A stretch of DNA of 32,243 bases from assembly GCA_003251535.1 (NCBI GenBank), contig QKFD01000054.1, forward strand, positions 1-32,243. Direction: 5' to 3'. The stretch's first letter is position 1. Every line of letters begins with the position of its first letter. Made by a program: the position numbers and the translations under genes. The DNA is from Chromatiales bacterium (lineage in GTDB: Bacteria > Pseudomonadota > Gammaproteobacteria > Thiohalomonadales > Thiohalomonadaceae). This document shows, piece after piece, positions 16,558 through 23,635 of the stretch. A model generated the notes under the pieces. It had not been told where the DNA came from and ran no database searches. It was given only the letters and a program-made list of their open reading frames with translations.

Positions 16558-16660
16558 ATGCGAATAGATGGACAGGAATAGATGGACATCCATCACGAAT
16601 AGATGAACATCCATCATAGAAAGCTCCTTTTGGACGAATAGATGGACATCCATCATAAAA

Positions 16661-16697
16661 CCAAGGAAACCGATTTCTCGGAAAAATTCCTTTTGGA
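16661..16697 (+). terminator. Nested inverted repeat after mscS, possible terminator
   Basis: CCAAGGAA (16661-16668) can pair imperfectly with TTCCTTTTGG (16688-16697), and inside it CCGA-TTTC-TCGG forms a second small stem. It lies about 100 bases past mscS and has no proper T run, so a role as terminator is only a suggestion. Confidence 0.3.
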
Positions 16698-16706
16698 ATA
16701 CAGTAC

Positions 16707-16741
16707 AGCGAATAGATCAGCGAATAGATCAGCGAATAGAT
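16707..16741 (+). repeat. Twelve-base tandem repeat, three copies
   Basis: AGCGAATAGATC is repeated at 16707-16718 and 16719-16730, with a third copy ending AGCGAATAGATG from 16731. The unit shares GAATAGAT with the adjacent hairpin elements, so it looks like local slippage or expansion of an element's left flank. Confidence 0.85.
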
Positions 16742-16998
16742 GACCGAATAGATGGACAGCCATCATAAGAACAAGCTCCTTTTGGGACAGCCAGGATATT
16801 TGTGTGAGGACACCCATGTGAAGCTAGGTAAACAAATTTCCTAAAGGATGATTCAAAAATAATTAAGAGAAAAGCAGGCTGGGCATCAAGGTGGGAATGG
16901 GGGAGGCGGGGTTTTTCTTGCTCGACTGTCTAGTGAAGATGGACGGGGTAAGTAAATATAAAAAAGCGATGCCGATGGTTTCTGGGCGGCGATGTGAA

Positions 16999-17997
16999 TT
17001 ACGTTGAGAAGTAGCTATGGCAGGCCCCCCAGCCAGGGGTTCGGCGATAGCCAAGAGTCCGATAGGCGGCTTTGAGGCGATGGGCAGCACCAACTAGTCC
17101 TTTGAAAAGACTCTCAAAGCGAGTGGTTAGATAGCGCCACTGCTCCTGTTCGATGCCTAAGCGTTGAAGAATTGGGGGAAGTCGATGGTTGATAACCCCG
17201 CGCTTACCCTCTTGTAGAATACGGCCCGTGAACTCCACCACCTCTAAGTAATCCATGAGATGGTACGGCAGGCCGGAAGGCATATCCAGGCGCAGGTCAC
17301 CTAAGAACGGGAGTAAGTGGGCAGGTTGCTGTTCTGGCAATTCGGGAGTGTGGGTGGCTATCGCGGCGGCGATCCGCTCTTTCACCGAGGTGTAGTCGGA
17401 CTCCTCTGGCGTATCGGCCAGTTGAGCGCGGATGGGGTTGAGATCGACATAGACCATGCAGGCGAGTATGGCCTTCTCATCTAACAGGGCTTGCGACTTG
17501 AAGCGTCCCTCCCAGAAGCGGCCTGTGCAACCGTCTTCAGCATTGGCCTTGCGGGCGATCTGCTCGTTCATGGCCCGCATGAACCAGCTGAGATCGGCCA
17601 GGCGCGAGCGCCAGAGCGTGACTAGGCCGTCCAAAATCAACCATTCGGCTTTAGAGAGCACTTCCCCCTGTGCAAAGCGACGACTCAACGGGTTGCCGGA
17701 GAAGAGTCCATGCCAACGTTGGATCACCTCTAGCGCCGTCCACTGGGTTGCTGCCTCAGGGTCCATGCGCACAACCACGTGGTAGTGATTGGACATCACA
17801 GCGTAGGCGCAGAGATCCAGTGCAAACAGAGTGGCCAGTTCCCGCAATCGATCCCGTATCCAGCCGCGACGATGCTCAAAGCTACGGCCACTTTCGGCAT
17901 CTTCGCCACAGAGGAAGGCACGGCGGACGCAGCGGACTGAGCAGTGGTAGAACGGGGTCATCTCCAGGCTGACGAGCGCCTTCCTTGGTTTTGTCAT
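16999..17997 (-). CDS. REP-associated tyrosine (Y1/HUH) transposase
   Basis: The 332-residue protein belongs to the IS200/IS605-like Y1 transposase group that associates with REP repeats (RAYT). The N-terminal half has TPFYHCSVRCVRRAFLCGED and the metal-binding HUH motif in SNHYHVVV (about residues 72-79). A later stretch, GCTGRFWEGRFKSQAL ... MVYVDLNPIRA, is typical of the family. It is longer than the shortest RAYTs, as in a well-known subgroup of about 320 residues. The ATG at 17997 is preferred to an upstream GTG at 18006. The frame is intact. Clusters of short hairpin elements lie on both sides, as expected for a transposase with its own repeats. No terminal inverted repeats of a classical IS are seen. 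Confidence 0.88.
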   Translation of the reverse strand: MTKPRKALVSLEMTPFYHCSVRCVRRAFLCGEDAESGRSFEHRRGWIRDRLRELATLFALDLCAYAVMSNHYHVVVRMDPEAATQWTALEVIQRWHGLFSGNPLSRRFAQGEVLSKAEWLILDGLVTLWRSRLADLSWFMRAMNEQIARKANAEDGCTGRFWEGRFKSQALLDEKAILACMVYVDLNPIRAQLADTPEESDYTSVKERIAAAIATHTPELPEQQPAHLLPFLGDLRLDMPSGLPYHLMDYLEVVEFTGRILQEGKRGVINHRLPPILQRLGIEQEQWRYLTTRFESLFKGLVGAAHRLKAAYRTLGYRRTPGWGACHSYFST

Positions 17998-18163
17998 GGT
18001 TTCCACTCGCTATGAAATTGAAGTTATAGATAGATTTACAGATACGGGCCGTTTTGGCAAGGACTGTGAGTGGATGTCCAACGAGGAGGAGTGGCTGGCT
18101 GGCTAGATAGAAGTGGGTGTCCGAGATGGAGGGAGGGGGCAAGGTGGGATAAGGATGGGTGTC

Positions 18164-18210
18164 CAGGGTGAGTGTCAGGGTGAGTGCAGGGTGAGTGGCC
18201 AGGTGAGTGC
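18164..18210 (+). repeat. Degenerate 11-13-base tandem repeat
   Basis: Four successive variants of CAGGGTGAGTG occur between 18164 and 18210, differing by one or two bases and by small length changes. Non-coding. Confidence 0.7.
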
Positions 18211-18227
18211 TCGGCCTTGGCAAGCTT

Positions 18228-18245
18228 CTCGAATGGATGTCCGAG
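18228..18245 (-). repeat. Left inverted repeat flanking the CHAT operon
   Basis: On the minus strand this reads CTCGGACATCCATTCGAG. It matches 21746-21763 on the plus strand at 17 of 18 bases, so the two copies face each other across the three-gene operon. A third copy lies at 21932-21949. Confidence 0.8.
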
Positions 18246-18248
18246 TCG

Positions 18249-18276
18249 TTGCGCGAGTCGTTGGGCGTGTTAATCT
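18249..18276 (+). promoter_or_regulatory. Candidate sigma-70 promoter of the CHAT operon
   Basis: TTGCGC (18249-18254) and TAATCT (18271-18276) are separated by 16 bases, an acceptable -35/-10 pair about 30 bases upstream of the first gene. It starts four bases after the left inverted repeat. A nine-base direct repeat GAGTCGTTG (18243-18251 and 18255-18263) overlaps the -35 region and could be an operator. Confidence 0.4.
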
Positions 18277-18309
18277 CGCCCACGGCTCATGGGAGGGGAG
18301 GCGGTGTGC

Positions 18310-18717
18310 ATGAACGAAGGATTGAAACGCATTTTATTAGCATCTCAGGTCCACGTCCGGTCCGTGGTCAGGCGAAAAGGCCGCACGAACCTCCAATGGC
18401 GAGGTCTGGCGCTGTTGGTGCTGATATCGCCGACCGCGGCATGGGCCGACTGTTTCTGTCTGACCAACGATGATGACGCCGTTTGGTTCGATTGCGTGGA
18501 GCAGCGGCGCCCGCTGACCGTTGATCCGCTGCTCTTCTGCCGAGACAGGCAAACCGGCCGCCTCCAGAGGGTTGAGGATGGACACCTGCTCGATCGGATC
18601 CCCGAGGGCGAGGGATTTTGCCAGCCGTGCCGTATTGAGATCGCCAATGAAGGGGGCAGATACCCCCGTGGCGAAGACGCTGCCACCCCGCCGGCACCTG
18701 CTGAGAGTAACCCATGA
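18310..18717 (+). CDS. Small cysteine-rich exported protein, unknown family
   Basis: This 135-residue protein has an unusually long N-terminal leader ending in a hydrophobic stretch (GLALLVLISPTAAWA) and a likely signal-peptidase site before DCFCLTN, at about residue 46. The mature part, about 90 residues, has six cysteines (CFC, DC, FC and CQPC), consistent with disulfides in an oxidising compartment. It ends in a low-complexity Pro/Ala/Glu tail. I recognise no family. A good GGAGG site precedes the ATG at 18310; a GTG inside the leader would give a more ordinary signal peptide and cannot be excluded. Its stop overlaps the next start (ATGA at 18714-18717). It is the first gene of the CHAT operon. 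Confidence 0.75.
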   Translation: MNEGLKRILLASQVHVRSVVRRKGRTNLQWRGLALLVLISPTAAWADCFCLTNDDDAVWFDCVEQRRPLTVDPLLFCRDRQTGRLQRVEDGHLLDRIPEGEGFCQPCRIEIANEGGRYPRGEDAATPPAPAESNP

Positions 18718-19307
18718 GTATGAGGCCTCAGCTTGTGGACGCCGCCCTGGTGACCACTTTGACTGCCGCGCTGATCTATGTGGCCGGTTGGTCCTTCGCC
18801 CAGCACTGGTTCGATCACTTCAATCTCGGGCTCATCGGTTTGGGGATCCCACTGGAATACCACCTTATGTACGGCCTGTGGGTGCTGTGGGACGCCTGGT
18901 GGCTGTTGGGCACACTCGCTGCCGCGGGGCTGGCGGCGTGGCGTTGGTGGGTACCGGCGCGGCGGCGGTTGCGGGAGGGCTGGCCGCTGGCGCTGCTCCC
19001 GGCGTTTCTGCTGTTCTACGGCCTGGGTGCGCGATGTGCGGATACCGAGTACGCCACGCTCCGCGAACAGGACTTCGCTAGCCTGCCACCGGTGCGGGTG
19101 TGGCTGAATGGGGGCAATAGCAGCGAGCCAAAGATGCAGGCGGTTATAACCGACCTGGCCGCGGGGGGCTATCGGCTGTTGCTCAAGGGGGGAGGTGATC
19201 TCTACCTGATCAAACCTGTCATGGGGAGTGAGCAGCCCGTCGTGCAGATACCCGCTGGCCAGGTACGGGCGATGCGTGTGATCCCGGTCAATCCCGGGTG
19301 GCATTGA
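18714..19307 (+). CDS. Three-helix membrane protein with periplasmic tail
   Basis: The 197-residue protein has three predicted transmembrane segments (about residues 9-30, 52-77 and 88-107) and a C-terminal soluble domain of about 85 residues that looks beta-rich (GGYRLLLKGGGDLYLIKPVMG). The arginine-rich loop between helices 2 and 3 (PARRRLREG) should be cytoplasmic, which places the C-terminal domain in the periplasm. The family is not recognised. It is translationally coupled to the upstream cysteine-rich gene and followed after 37 bases by the TPR-CHAT gene. That order suggests a membrane anchor or receptor for the two exported proteins; this is inference. Confidence 0.78.
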   Translation: MSMRPQLVDAALVTTLTAALIYVAGWSFAQHWFDHFNLGLIGLGIPLEYHLMYGLWVLWDAWWLLGTLAAAGLAAWRWWVPARRRLREGWPLALLPAFLLFYGLGARCADTEYATLREQDFASLPPVRVWLNGGNSSEPKMQAVITDLAAGGYRLLLKGGGDLYLIKPVMGSEQPVVQIPAGQVRAMRVIPVNPGWH

Positions 19308-19327
19308 ACCTCGGGTGGTATTGAAAC
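19295..19327 (+). repeat. Short direct repeat across a stop codon
   Basis: CGGGTGGCATTGAAC (19295-19309) is followed by CGGGTGGTATTGAAAC (19312-19327). The duplication covers the end of the membrane-protein gene and the leader of the CHAT gene. ATTGAAAC also ends the CRISPR repeat at the window start, but the rest does not match. Confidence 0.6.
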
Positions 19328-19344
19328 AGGAAGGGAGGCGACGG

Positions 19345-21702
19345 ATGGTGAGGTCTTTGCTGATCGGAGGGCTGCTGCTCTGGGCCGGTGCCAGCGCTGC
19401 GCTGGAAGAGGGTGGCTCCACCACGGTCGAGGCTGTGGTCCAGGAACTCCAGGGTGAGCTGGGGCGGGCGCCGAGTGACGAGGAGGTTGTTCGGCGCCTG
19501 AATGCACTAACTGTCGCGGCCTACGGCAAAGGAGACTATGCGCAGGCCGAAGCGGCGGCGAGGCTGGCATGGACAGAGGGCCGAGGCCGATTGGGCGAAG
19601 AGCACCCCGTTACCCTCGTTAGCCTCAACAACCTTGCTGCTTTGTATGATGCCCAGGGCCGTTACGGAGAAGCGGAGCCGCTTTTGCAGCGCGCCCTGGA
19701 GACCCGTGAGCGCGTGCTCGGGCGCGAGCACCCCGATAGCCTCGTTAGCCTCAACAACCTTGCTGCTTTGTATAAATCCCAGGGCCGTTACGGAGAAGCG
19801 GAGCCGCTTTATCAGCGCGCCCTGGAGACCAGTGAGCGGGTGCTCGGGCGCGAGCACCCCGATAGCCTCAGCAGCCTCAATAATCTTGCTGGTTTGTATT
19901 ATGCCCAGGGCCGTTACGGAGAAGCGGAGCCGCTTTATCAGCGCGCCCTGGAGACCAGTGAGCGCGTGCTCGGCCCCGACCACCCCGACACGGTCGCGGT
20001 GCAACTCAACCTCGCCGTAGCGCTTATCAACCAGAACAGGGTCACCCAGGCGCTACGCACACTCCGAACACTGGATAGCCGCCTGCACGCCTTCGTCACC
20101 GGCCAACTCGCCACCACCGAGCGGGAGCGGGTGCGCCGCGGGTGGTTGCTATCCCAATCCAGTTTCCAGGACGTGGTATTTACCCTTGCCCTGAAGAGCA
20201 CCGATACCGATGCCCACCGTCTGGCGGCCGACATCCTGCTGCGCTGGCATCGCCTGGCGGGGGAGGAGGAGGGGGCCATTGCCCATCTCCTGCGCACCAG
20301 TCACGACCCGCAGCTGTTGGCGGAGGCGGAGGCGCTGCGCCGGGCCCGGACCGAGTACAGCCACCTGGTCAACTCCGCCAACCCCGCCCCCACCGCCCTG
20401 CGCGCTGCCCAGGTGCGCATGGAGCGGCAGGAGGTGGCGCTGGCGGCCCGCAGCCGCCCGTTCGCCAGCCTGCGGGCCGGTCGCCAGGTGGAGTGGGAGG
20501 CGGTCCAGTCCGCCCTGCCGCGGGGCTCGGCCCTGCTGGCCCTGCGCATGTACAAACCGGTCGATTTCAAGACCGGCCGGGCGGGCGCGCCGCACTGGCT
20601 CGCCCTGCTGCTACCCCAGGAGCCGGAGGCGGGGCCGGAGCTGTATCTGCAAGACCTCGGCCCGGTCTCCGCCACCATCCCGCTGCTGCGCGAACTGCGC
20701 GAAAGCGGCTCCGACGCGGCGGCCCAGGCGCTCTACGCCACGCTGTTCGGCCGCCTGGACGAGCAGCTCGCCGGCTACCGAGAGCTGTTCATCGCCCCCG
20801 ATGGTGAGCTGGAGCTGGCGCCGTTCGCCCGCCTGCGTCTCCCGGATGGCCGTTTCTGGGTCGAGCGTCAGCCGCTGCACCGGCTCCTGAGCGGGCGCGA
20901 CCTGCTGCCCACCGGCACGGCCGGCATGGGCGAAGGCATGGTGGTGTTCGGCGGCATCGACTACAGCACCTATGGGCCGGCCGAAACCGCTGCCGCGAAG
21001 GAGGGCCCCGCCGCCAGCGGCGGCGAGCTGCTGGCGGCGAGCCGGCGCCTACGCGACGAACGCGGAGAGTTCAAGCTGTTAGAGCATACGGGGGTTGAAG
21101 CGGAGGGGGTGGCGGGCTTCTACTGGGACTACCACCAGCGTGCGCCGGTTGTGTGGCAAGGGGCAGAGGCCAGCGAGCAGCGCCTCAAATCCCTGGCGCG
21201 CCCGCCCCGCATCCTCCACCTGGCCACCCACGGCTTCTTCCTGAGCCAGAGCCAGAAGCGCGCCGAGCGTCCTGCCACCCTCGCCGGCCTCGCTCTGGCG
21301 GGAGCCAACCTGGGGCGCAAGGGGCAACTGAGCCCCACAGGCGAAGACGGCCTCCTCTATGCCCTGGAGGTGCAGGACCTTTACCTGGAAGGCACCGAGC
21401 TGGTGACCCTCTCCGCCTGCGACACCGCTCTCGGCCAGGTGGACTACTCGGAGGGGGTCTATGGGCTGGTGCGCGCCTTCCGCATCGCTGGTACCAGAGA
21501 TGTGCTGATGACCCTCTGGCCGCTGGACGACGCCCTGGCGCAGGGGTTCATGGAGGGGTTTTATCGCCGCCTGTTCGACGGTTCCGGAAAGCGGCCCGCC
21601 GAGGCGCTACGGGAGACCCAACTGGCCTGGATCGGCGACAGCGACCCGCGCCGGCGCGATCCCAAGTATTGGGCGCCCTACGTGCTGGTGGAGGGGCGGT
21701 AG
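19345..21702 (+). CDS. Exported TPR-CHAT caspase-like protease
   Basis: The 785-residue protein begins with a cleavable-looking signal peptide (MVRSLLIGGLLLWAGASA, about residues 1-18). A TPR region follows (about residues 85-220) with three full kinesin-light-chain-type repeats of 42 residues, each with LNNLA(A/G)LY ... GRYGEAEPL. A helical spacer comes next, then a C-terminal CHAT domain (about 490-785). The presumed catalytic pair is His629 in LHLATHGFF and Cys692 in LSACDTALG; both are present. CHAT domains are caspase/separase-related cysteine proteases, and the TPRs would bind a partner or substrate. The ATG at 19345 follows an AGGGAGG site; an in-frame GTG at 19315 is rejected because it would bury the signal peptide. 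Export separates it from cytosolic CRISPR-linked TPR-CHAT proteins. Confidence 0.92.
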   Translation: MVRSLLIGGLLLWAGASAALEEGGSTTVEAVVQELQGELGRAPSDEEVVRRLNALTVAAYGKGDYAQAEAAARLAWTEGRGRLGEEHPVTLVSLNNLAALYDAQGRYGEAEPLLQRALETRERVLGREHPDSLVSLNNLAALYKSQGRYGEAEPLYQRALETSERVLGREHPDSLSSLNNLAGLYYAQGRYGEAEPLYQRALETSERVLGPDHPDTVAVQLNLAVALINQNRVTQALRTLRTLDSRLHAFVTGQLATTERERVRRGWLLSQSSFQDVVFTLALKSTDTDAHRLAADILLRWHRLAGEEEGAIAHLLRTSHDPQLLAEAEALRRARTEYSHLVNSANPAPTALRAAQVRMERQEVALAARSRPFASLRAGRQVEWEAVQSALPRGSALLALRMYKPVDFKTGRAGAPHWLALLLPQEPEAGPELYLQDLGPVSATIPLLRELRESGSDAAAQALYATLFGRLDEQLAGYRELFIAPDGELELAPFARLRLPDGRFWVERQPLHRLLSGRDLLPTGTAGMGEGMVVFGGIDYSTYGPAETAAAKEGPAASGGELLAASRRLRDERGEFKLLEHTGVEAEGVAGFYWDYHQRAPVVWQGAEASEQRLKSLARPPRILHLATHGFFLSQSQKRAERPATLAGLALAGANLGRKGQLSPTGEDGLLYALEVQDLYLEGTELVTLSACDTALGQVDYSEGVYGLVRAFRIAGTRDVLMTLWPLDDALAQGFMEGFYRRLFDGSGKRPAEALRETQLAWIGDSDPRRRDPKYWAPYVLVEGR
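19621..19998 (+). repeat. Three near-identical 126-base units encoding TPRs
   Basis: Units at 19621-19746, 19747-19872 and 19873-19998 each encode one 42-residue TPR. The DNA, including silent positions, is nearly unchanged over most of each unit (for example GGCCGTTACGGAGAAGCGGA in all three), which points to recent duplication or gene conversion rather than old repeats kept alike by selection on protein alone. Confidence 0.9.
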
Positions 21703-21740
21703 GGGCGGTTATCTGGGGTTGCCAGATATAAGCCACCCAG

Positions 21741-21912
21741 AACTACTCGGACACCCATTCGAGGAGTTGGGCTTTGTCGCGTATCCGGACAGCCACCCCG
21801 TTGAACCTATGATGGGTTTCGCCTCCGGCTCTACGCCATCCTACCGGGAGGAAGTATCTGGACATCCATCGGATCTGGGTCAAAAAAATTCAGATGGGTG
21901 TCTGGGGAAGTA
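21741..21912 (+). repeat. Composite direct repeat, copy 1
   Basis: This copy starts AACTACTCGGACACCCATTC and ends TCTGGGGAAG(TA). It contains, in order: the 18-base element (21746-21763), a variant GGACAGCCACC, a hairpin-capable GATGGGTTTCGCC ... CCATC stretch, TGGACATCCATC, a run of seven A residues and the opposed CAGATGGGTGTCTGG. The period to copy 2 is 186 bases. Confidence 0.9.
21746..21763 (+). repeat. Right inverted repeat flanking the CHAT operon
   Basis: CTCGGACACCCATTCGAG is the inverted partner of 18228-18245, with one mismatch. It lies 44 bases after the stop codon of the TPR-CHAT gene. Confidence 0.8.
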
Positions 21913-21926
21913 GCTGGGTGTCGGCA

Positions 21927-22114
21927 AACTACTCGGACACCCATTCGAGGAGTTGGGCTTTGTCGCGTATCTGGACAGCCATCCCGTCGAACCTATGATG
22001 GGTTTCGCCTCCGGCTCTACGCCATCCTACCGGGAGTGTCTGCGAGTATCCGAGGGAGTATCTGGACATCCATCGGATCTGGGGTTAAAAAAATTCAGAT
22101 GGGTGTCTGGGGAA
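21927..22114 (+). repeat. Composite direct repeat, copy 2
   Basis: This repeats copy 1 with scattered substitutions (for example GTATCTGGACAGCCATCCCGTC for GTATCCGGACAGCCACCCCGTT) and an insertion of about 16-20 bases at about 22036-22056. A further partial copy of the end motif (GGTGTCTGGGGAAGTA) is at 22125-22140. Confidence 0.9.
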
Positions 22115-22408
22115 GGGGGAAGTAGGTGTCTGGGGAAGTAAGCGCGATGTAGATCAGCGTTAGTGCAGCGTAACCCGACAACTCTCCGCAGGGGCACAAC
22201 CGTTCATCCAGCCAGTGCTGGAGGCGGGCGAGTCGCGGCCCTCTGAGCATGGTTGAGCGGGGCGCCCATGGAACCTCCCCCAGGCCGCTGCTGGGGTGCA
22301 AAGTTGATTTCCATCTCCCTTGGCAGGCTGGATAGTCTGTGACCGTTTGGGGCCTCGCTACGGTGGGGTAACTCCATGAAATCCTGAAAAAAGCGCCCAG
22401 TTTCGGTT

Positions 22409-22424
22409 TGGCACGGCGTTTGAC
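22409..22424 (+). promoter_or_regulatory. Candidate sigma-54 promoter of the hyb operon
   Basis: TGGCACG (22409-22415), four bases, then TTGAC (22420-22424) is one base off the -24/-12 consensus TGGCACG-N4-TTGC. It lies 57 bases before the start of the small-subunit gene. Sigma-54 control of uptake hydrogenases is known in several proteobacteria. The changed C in the -12 GC makes the call uncertain. Confidence 0.35.
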
Positions 22425-22445
22425 TCTTCTCTGACGGGCACCGCT

Positions 22446-22466
22446 GTGAAGCGGTTCACGAAACCG
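22446..22466 (+). promoter_or_regulatory. Overlapping alternative hairpins in the hyb leader
   Basis: GTGAA-GCGG-TTCAC (22446-22459) and CGGTT-CACGA-AACCG (22452-22466) share bases and cannot form together. They lie just upstream of the ribosome site (AGAGAGGCG) of the first hyb gene. No known riboswitch is recognised. Confidence 0.3.
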
Positions 22467-22480
22467 TAGAGAGGCGAACG

Positions 22481-23635
22481 ATGAGCAACCAGTGGCTGGA
22501 GCGCGAGAAGTGGTTCGACGCGAGCGAGGTGGAGGTCCGCACCGGGATCAACCGCCGCGATTTCTTGAAGTTCTGCACCGGCGTGGCGGCTACCCTCGGC
22601 CTCTCCGGTAACGCCGGGCTCGCTATCGCCGAGGCGGTGACCAATAAGCAGCGGCCGCCGGTGATCTGGCTCTCTGGCCAGGAGTGCACCGGTTGTACGG
22701 AGTCGCTGCTGCGCTCTTACCACCCCACGGTGGAGCAGCTGGTGCTGGAGCTGATCTCGCTGGAGTATAGCGAGACCCTGAGCGCCGCCGCCGGCCACCA
22801 GGTGGAGGAGAATCGGCGGCGGGCGATGGAGCAGTATAAGGGGCAGTATGTGCTGGTGGTGGAGGGCTCCATCCCCACCAAGGATGGCGGCATCTACTGC
22901 AAGGTGGCGGATAAGACCTTCCTCCACCATGTGGAGGAGACCGCTGCCGGTGCCGCCGCGGTGATCGCCATCGGCTCCTGCGCCTCTTGGGGCGGTATCC
23001 CCTCATCCGGCCCCAACCCCACCGGCGCTGTCGGCGTCCCCCAGGTGGTGACCGACCGGCCGCTGGTCACCGTCCCCGGCTGCCCGCCCAACCCTTACAA
23101 CTTCCTCGCTACCGTGCTCCATCTGCTCACCTTCGGCAAGCTGCCGGCGCTGGATGAGAAGCTGCGGCCCAAGTTTGCCTACTCCCGCCTGATCCACGAG
23201 AACTGCGAGCGGCGCGCCCACTTTGACGCCGGTCGCTTTGCCCTGGAGTTTGGGGATGCGGGCCACCGGCAGGGGTGGTGTCTCTACAAACTGGGCTGCA
23301 AGGGGCCGGAGACCTACGCCAACTGCCCGCAGATCCTGTTTGGGGATGTCGGTTCCGGCTCCTGGCCGGTGGGTACGGGTCACCCCTGTTTCGGTTGTAC
23401 CGAGCAGGGGGTCGGTTTCACCAAGGCGATCCACGCCTTGGCCCACGTCAAGAATGTGGAGCCGCCGGCCCACTTCCCGCGGATTGAGGAGGAGCAGGGG
23501 CGCGGGGTCAGTGCCGGCACGGCCGCCTTCGCCGGGGCGCTGGGGGGGCTTGCGGTAGGCGCCGGGGCGATGGCGGTGCGGGATATGCGCAAGGAGGAGG
23601 CAACGGCGCAGAAGAGCGATAAGGCGGAGGGGTGA
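22481..23635 (+). CDS. hybO: [NiFe]-hydrogenase small subunit, Hyb type
   Basis: The 384-residue electron-transfer subunit of a periplasmic, membrane-bound hydrogenase carries three Fe-S clusters. A twin-arginine signal (NRRDFLKF, Arg25-Arg26) exports it folded together with the large subunit. Cluster ligands are seen in CTGCTES (Cys69, Cys72), IGSCASWGG, PGCPPNP, and the C-terminal set CERRAHFDAGR ... LGCKGPETYANCP ... HPCFGCTEQGVGF. A hydrophobic C-terminal helix (AGTAAFAGALGGLAVGAGAMAV) anchors it in the membrane. It opens a six-gene operon in the order of E. coli hybOABCDE. The nearby leader has a sigma-54-like site and alternative hairpins. Confidence 0.97.
   Translation: MSNQWLEREKWFDASEVEVRTGINRRDFLKFCTGVAATLGLSGNAGLAIAEAVTNKQRPPVIWLSGQECTGCTESLLRSYHPTVEQLVLELISLEYSETLSAAAGHQVEENRRRAMEQYKGQYVLVVEGSIPTKDGGIYCKVADKTFLHHVEETAAGAAAVIAIGSCASWGGIPSSGPNPTGAVGVPQVVTDRPLVTVPGCPPNPYNFLATVLHLLTFGKLPALDEKLRPKFAYSRLIHENCERRAHFDAGRFALEFGDAGHRQGWCLYKLGCKGPETYANCPQILFGDVGSGSWPVGTGHPCFGCTEQGVGFTKAIHALAHVKNVEPPAHFPRIEEEQGRGVSAGTAAFAGALGGLAVGAGAMAVRDMRKEEATAQKSDKAEG

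Follow-up and report, generated by a model that had tools for sequence, protein, structure and literature searches.

Paired 18-base repeats around a TPR-CHAT operon as probable members of the terminal-repeat family of an adjacent Y1 transposase

TnpA_Y1 subclass 2.3 is recognized by the motifs NHYH, WE and YVDLNP, a HuH-to-Y spacing of about 110 residues and a median length of 325 amino acids (aa), and is embedded within subclass 2.1; automatic and manual searches of subclasses 2.1 and 2.3 are described as having returned no REP-like sequences (Quentin et al. 2018, PMC6006769). Elements in which a Y1 gene lies between inverted terminal repeats have been described as TIRtrons or TIRYTs (Di Nocera et al. 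2013, PMC3733652), and 20 of 26 TIRtron examples were assigned to subclass 2.1 and none to subclass 2.3 in PMC6006769. Here, a stretch of 32,243 nucleotides (nt) from a Chromatiales bacterium of the Thiohalomonadaceae (assembly GCA_003251535.1, contig QKFD01000054.1, positions 1 to 32,243 of the forward strand), hereafter called the window, was analysed. It contains a Y1/HUH transposase gene adjoining a three-gene operon, as described in an earlier note in which two inverted 18-mers near the operon ends were taken for the borders of an accessory cassette. Judged from sequence comparison, the 18-mers are likely to belong to the same family as the terminal repeats of the neighbouring subclass 2.3 transposase, whose ends would have been copied by nicking and re-extension, and the bracketing of the operon would be incidental.

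The transposase and its terminal repeat

The transposase part of the window comprises the following features:
16999-18006, minus strand: Y1/HUH transposase gene encoding 335 aa from a GTG start, with the invariant Met at residue 4
18071-18078, plus strand: start-side terminal core TGGATGTC, 64 nt from the transposase gene, pointing outward
18114-18121 and 18156-18163, plus strand: second and third outward cores, TGGGTGTC
16809-16816, minus strand: stop-side terminal core TGGGTGTC, 186 nt past the transposase gene, pointing outward
16585-16762, minus strand: further stop-side outward cores, TGGCTGTC from 16762 and TGGATGTC from 16652 and 16592

NHYH at residues 73-76, WEGRF, YVDLNP at 186-191 with Tyr 186, and TS in the tail were found in the protein, with 110 residues from the second His (76) to Tyr 186; placed by motifs, spacing and length, it fits TnpA_Y1 subclass 2.3. 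A Pfam search gave no match at an expectation value (E) of 0.001, the REP_Tyr_transpos model (NCBIfam NF047646) scored 47 bits, under its cut-off of 80, and a sequence search of the PDB returned no match. The fold was predicted with a mean predicted local distance difference test score (pLDDT) of 86.9, and its best solved match in Foldseek was 4er8, a TnpA_REP of E. coli type (E 1.8e-3, probability 1.00). Eleven matches to the transposase were found in its own genome at E 0.001, several of them cut by contig ends.

Loci of relatives were taken as the best 80 of 586 candidates, and one with a partial gene (L113) was dropped, leaving 79. The core TGG[ACG]TG[TG]C pointed outward in the 300 nt upstream of the gene in 64 of the 79 loci and inward in 2, and in the 500 nt downstream outward in 58 and inward in 1; because of this orientation bias the core is very probably the terminal repeat of the transposase. 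Exact TGGGTGTC was found outward in 42/79 upstream and 24/79 downstream flanks (shuffled means 0.49 and 0.30) and never inward, and a looser core outward in 70 and 66 of 79 and inward in 3 and 2; both relaxed cores were picked after the misses of the exact core had been seen. The upstream core lay a median of 70 nt (59-141) ahead of the conserved start, and the downstream core a median of 203 nt (159-240) beyond the stop. Within these expected distance windows 52 loci had an outward core at both ends and 68 had one at either end or both, which bears out the earlier note's connection of the repeats with the transposase. Six copies in the window's own genome that keep the start side (those of the window, C34, C75, C40, C124 and C38) had an outward core 63-83 nt from the gene, and in a second set of eight relatives' transposase matches it was found at both ends in four, at one end in three and at neither in one. 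The putative terminal site is linear, roughly T[TA]Ann[AG]TGGGTG[TG]C-YNNNTWR, and, as its position and orientation in many relatives show, it points away from the gene at both ends. A folding scan of both strands, covering 119-120 ends, gave no hairpin signal (mean z between -0.06 and -0.27).

At position 7 of the core, the T/G variant tended to agree between the two ends (TT 21, GG 11, TG 4, GT 0; p 2.3e-6, with kinship ignored). With the relaxed core the variants were TT 32, GG 12, TG 5 and GT 2, with a single end in 15 and none in 11 of 77 loci; on a protein tree of these 77 (two more of the 79 left out, and the 11 carrying no variant label) the variant changed 8 times, compared with a shuffled mean of 20.2. 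The protein alignment (A2) held 44 rows, namely the window, 5 relatives of the second set and 38 of the 77 tree loci. Different clades carry different core versions, TGGGTGTC, TGGGTGGC and GACTGTC. As a separate observation, the upstream flank of a Microbulbifer element (L108) contains four tandem units of 18 base pairs (bp), in which the core is altered to TGGGTGTTG and the tail unchanged.

Dispersal of the repeat and duplications at its ends

All three 18-mers of the window (a third copy is described below) belong to a repeat family with the core TGG[AG]TGTC. TGGRTGTCC was found at 205 sites in the window's own genome, compared with 48 for the reversed pattern, and the strict pattern TGGGTGTCYNNNTWR at 62 compared with 2; the longer TGGGTGTCYNNNTWR was used across genomes, and TGGRTGTCC was dropped for this purpose because it was also in excess in genomes with no transposase match (e.g. 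G045). Additional copies are solitary or in arrays and mostly intergenic. Strict sites lay outside open reading frames (ORFs) in 43 of 45 cases in the own genome and 38 of 40 in Aliiglaciecola lipolytica, where ORFs cover 65% and 72%, respectively, of stretches chosen for holding repeats or, in the own genome, repeats or transposase matches. Own-genome repeats often form irregular clusters or tandem arrays with periods of 8, 15, 16 and 20 nt (C40, C3, C25 and C27). Two such places stand out for their form: a near-pure 8-bp array of TGGGTGTC and TGGATGTC, a bare core without tail, at about 3230-3286 of C40 (L020), and a possible miniature element at about 200-300 of C37 (L036), where a stop-side-type and a start-side-type end point outward about 60 bp apart.

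Across genomes, strict sites clearly exceeded the reversed control in 3 of 15 transposase hosts (117 vs 5, 65 vs 3 and 27 vs 2), the count having taken in 15 of 16 loci, and among 55 other relatives in G018 (14/2), G016 (13/0) and G010 (10/2). Spread beyond the element is therefore not general, as 12 of the 15 hosts had no clear excess.

The intergenic placement, together with arrays in stretches that had no transposase match when examined (e.g. C30, C43 and C46), would also fit repeats that are regulatory or protein-binding sites of the host, with the transposase merely nearby. Set against this are the outward-pointing core, which keeps a fixed position at each end of the gene in different genera, and the tendency of the core variants to agree between ends, and we regard a host function of this kind as very unlikely.

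Tandem duplications whose start lay between -30 and +20 relative to the core were collected at 120 ends. There were 46 of them; their starts were spread from -16 to +20, and their unit ends peaked 17-19 nt from the core start (23/46). When no condition was placed on the start, 23 of 76 duplications ended at 17-19 nt, corresponding to 23 of the 52 ends having any duplication; with random placement the mean was 1.3 and the maximum 6 (2000 trials). Low-complexity duplications were removed. The same peak was seen for single duplications at own-genome sites (7/24) and at other loci (11/23), with periodic arrays (21 and 3 rows) kept apart in these two sets; the other-loci set partly overlaps the 79 loci, and a duplication may enter the count twice, once from each of two cores. 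Varying starts combined with a preferred 3' boundary are what would be expected if a nick at that boundary were repeatedly re-extended.

The mechanism proposed is as follows. The transposase would nick a single strand at a point about 10 nt 3' to the core, and the freed 3' end would slip back on the repeat and be re-extended. Re-extension would add further end copies whose starts vary and, where the core was included, would give rise to arrays. That a Y1/HUH enzyme reads a linear, hairpin-less site, nicks about 10 nt outside it and, by repeated re-annealing and re-extension, grows tandem ends and seeds arrays is put forward tentatively, as the less favoured side of an uncertain question. If true, this would show an HUH enzyme building dispersed repeats in a distinct way, legible as a preferred 3' boundary; it would give tandem intergenic arrays a simple origin, and the preferred breakpoint predicts the cut position to within about 3 nt.

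A number of points weigh against a terminal repeat copied in this way. The unit ends of 53 of the 76 duplications lay outside 17-19 nt, and replication slippage with no nick could also yield tandem duplications; slippage at a sequence-dependent pause may be an alternative source of the scar. No core was found at either end within the expected windows in 11 of the 79 loci; some of these show a clade variant, GACTGTC, present at both ends in four of a group of six related loci of Oceanospirillales type. In the second set, the upstream flank of the relative with a core at neither end was partly masked. With the best 80 of 586 candidates used, the sample leaves distant relatives of the transposase unrepresented. 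In the window itself the terminal tails that follow 18078 and 16809 have diverged, the hosts with no clear excess of strict sites ranged from 13 vs 6 to below the control, and the Foldseek E for 4er8 exceeds the 0.001 mark.

The paired 18-mers and the operon

The 18-mers, the repeat clusters around them and the operon between these clusters are arranged as follows:
18228-18245, minus strand: left 18-mer, with its core TGGATGTC at 18234-18241 on the plus strand, pointing to the operon
18242-18251 and 18254-18263, plus strand: tail CGAGTCGTTG, present twice, the unit ending 18 nt from where the core starts
18289-21702, plus strand: three-gene operon, judged to lie outside the repeat unit
18289-18717, plus strand: gene 1, a Cys-containing protein of 142 aa
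18714-19307, plus strand: gene 2, 197 aa
19345 or 19315 to 21702, plus strand: TPR-CHAT gene
21746-21763, plus strand: right 18-mer, with its core TGGGTGTC at 21750-21757 on the minus strand, pointing to the operon
21932-21949, plus strand: third exact 18-mer copy
21741-22140, no strand assigned: right-hand repeat cluster, an imperfect tandem duplication, with minus-strand cores from 21757, 21868, 21943 and 22072

The two 18-mers were found where the earlier note had placed them and are identical at 17 of 18 positions. Their origin by chance is unlikely because three matches with at most three mismatches were found in the window and 0.06 were expected from shuffles; genome-wide there were five sites with at most two mismatches. 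The window contains three exact copies (counted with one letter, Y, left open) instead of the two described earlier, the third lying on the right. The right-hand cluster was formed by imperfect tandem duplication (21741-21850 vs 21927-22036, 97%; 21848-21888 vs 22052-22092, 90%), so that the operon is not uniquely bracketed by the 18-mer pattern. Its plus-strand cores start at 21895, 21915 and 22100 and form two outward pairs with minus-strand cores, 21868/21895 and 22072/22100.

Two nearly identical 18-mers in inverted orientation near the ends of the operon, and two small genes that are orphans, are what a mobile operon cassette ending in the 18-mers would be expected to show. Set against such a cassette, the cores of both 18-mers point inward at the operon, and element ends point outward. 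Both carry tails, CGAGT[AC]G, that resemble the start-side end of this genome's other transposase copies (among five other start-side tails, CGAGTAG in three, CAAGTAG in one and CGAGTTG in one), a comparison for which few stop-side ends were on hand. Counted from the start side of the transposase, the core of the left 18-mer comes fourth among the outward cores (starts 18071, 18114, 18156 and 18234), and the left 18-mer shows the duplication scar; the right one is itself duplicated. The promoter that had been placed just inside the left copy was not recovered by a sigma-70-type scan of 17950-22520, in which the only candidates were at 21786 and 21972; the region immediately inside the left 18-mer is the duplicated repeat tail.

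In Aliiglaciecola lipolytica the repeats border ordinary genes in either polarity. Inward pairs flank a group of U32 peptidase and glutathione S-transferase (GST) genes, topoisomerase IB, cytochrome b561 and adenosine deaminase, outward repeats lie around a DEAD-helicase/histidine-kinase group, and same-direction repeats lie around an arginase gene; brackets of either polarity thus arise because the repeats settle between genes. A stretch of about 20 kilobases (kb) on contig C3 of this genome (G389; L173 and L174) is dense in repeats, with outward pairs about 44 bp apart among ordinary genes; a gene-cassette array was considered for it and ruled out, the genes being ordinary and in both orientations. 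The earlier note had named occurrence at many sites with no link to cassette ends as the observation that would count against its reading, and this is largely what was found. A cassette with the 18-mers as its ends was rejected on the grounds of polarity, end type, the third copy and the place of the left copy in the transposase series; the operon is probably not bounded in this way, and we consider the cassette scarcely credible. Paired repeats around an operon need not mean a cassette.

A larger composite element was also considered, in which outward cores on the left (minus strand, 16592-16816) and right (plus strand, 21895 or 22100) would bound the transposase with the operon as cargo. Outward cores are indeed present on both outer sides. 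No match to gene 1 was obtained from the 368 other genomes of the class that were searched, nor to gene 2 from 55 other genomes, which fits acquired DNA; a pattern search of a wider contig collection likewise gave none for gene 2. The GC content at third codon positions (GC3) of gene 1 is low, 0.678 compared with 0.84-0.89 in the hyb genes. The transposase, however, is already flanked by ends of the normal kind at the usual distances (64 and 186 nt), the right-hand outward cores lie in mini-pairs of about 30 bp that are able to stand alone, and the GC3 of the CHAT gene, 0.819, is close to that of its neighbours. We consider the composite element unlikely and retain membership of the 18-mers in the transposase's own repeat family as the preferred explanation.

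As to the operon itself, the product of gene 1 is probably exported and that of gene 2 is a probable membrane protein, judging by their sequences; neither gene had a family match in Pfam or in further family searches. The TPR-CHAT gene is as described earlier (CHAT, E 1.9e-60). In its CHAT part (20305-21702) the stretches HLATHG and SACDT are retained and may carry the catalytic His and Cys. Three tandem repeats of 126 bp at 19600-19988, 89-93% alike and each of one TPR unit, suggest that the TPR part was recently expanded. A role in defence was set aside after PADLOC, run on four proteins, gave only a generic TPR model. Among 19 other genomes of the family, just 3 had CHAT matches, and the closest hybO relatives in the family had 52% identity at most; the searches for genes 1 and 2 and for hybO turned up no close relative of the locus. 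No match to mscS was found in 25 hyb and CHAT loci, a weak negative because the loci extend at most about 1.5 kb to each side.

Comparison with described Y1 systems

The transposase shares the Y1/HUH core fold with IS200/IS605 elements (IS608, ISDra2). It is more than twice as long as theirs, and its ends are inverted rather than on the same strand and show no hairpin signal. The resemblance to RAYT/REP systems and REPINs lies in repeats that are scattered, mostly between genes, and linked to a Y1 transposase, in inverted pairs and in a fold nearest to 4er8; unlike these, the repeat has no GT[AG]G at a hairpin base, its tail consensus YNNNTWR holding no fixed GT[AG]G, and the mean folding z around the core is about -0.2.

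The likeness to TIRtrons/TIRYTs is a Y1 gene between inverted terminal repeats, found here at both ends in the 52 loci given above, and some TIRtron repeats are also described as moderately abundant families, dimeric or clustered (PMC3733652). The TIRtron consensus, GGGGWSAS, resembles the core TGGGTG[TG]C, yet it was found outward in only 1/79 upstream and 1/79 downstream flanks here.

A literature search, largely confined to papers outside subscription and conducted outside the insertion-sequence database, gave no report of a repeat for subclass 2.3. The transposase agrees with this subclass, as described in PMC6006769, in NHYH, WE, YVDLNP, the TS of the tail, the spacing of 110, the length (335 aa, compared with a median of 325) and several copies per genome. 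It differs in that no REP-like repeat is given in the paper and a linear terminal repeat is present here. For subclass 2.3, a Y1/HUH group of Chromatiales and Alteromonadales, the linear, apparently hairpin-less repeat and the end signature with a preferred 3' boundary are apparently new, and the clade-specific repeat offers a candidate substrate for an enzyme whose DNA partner is reportedly unidentified.

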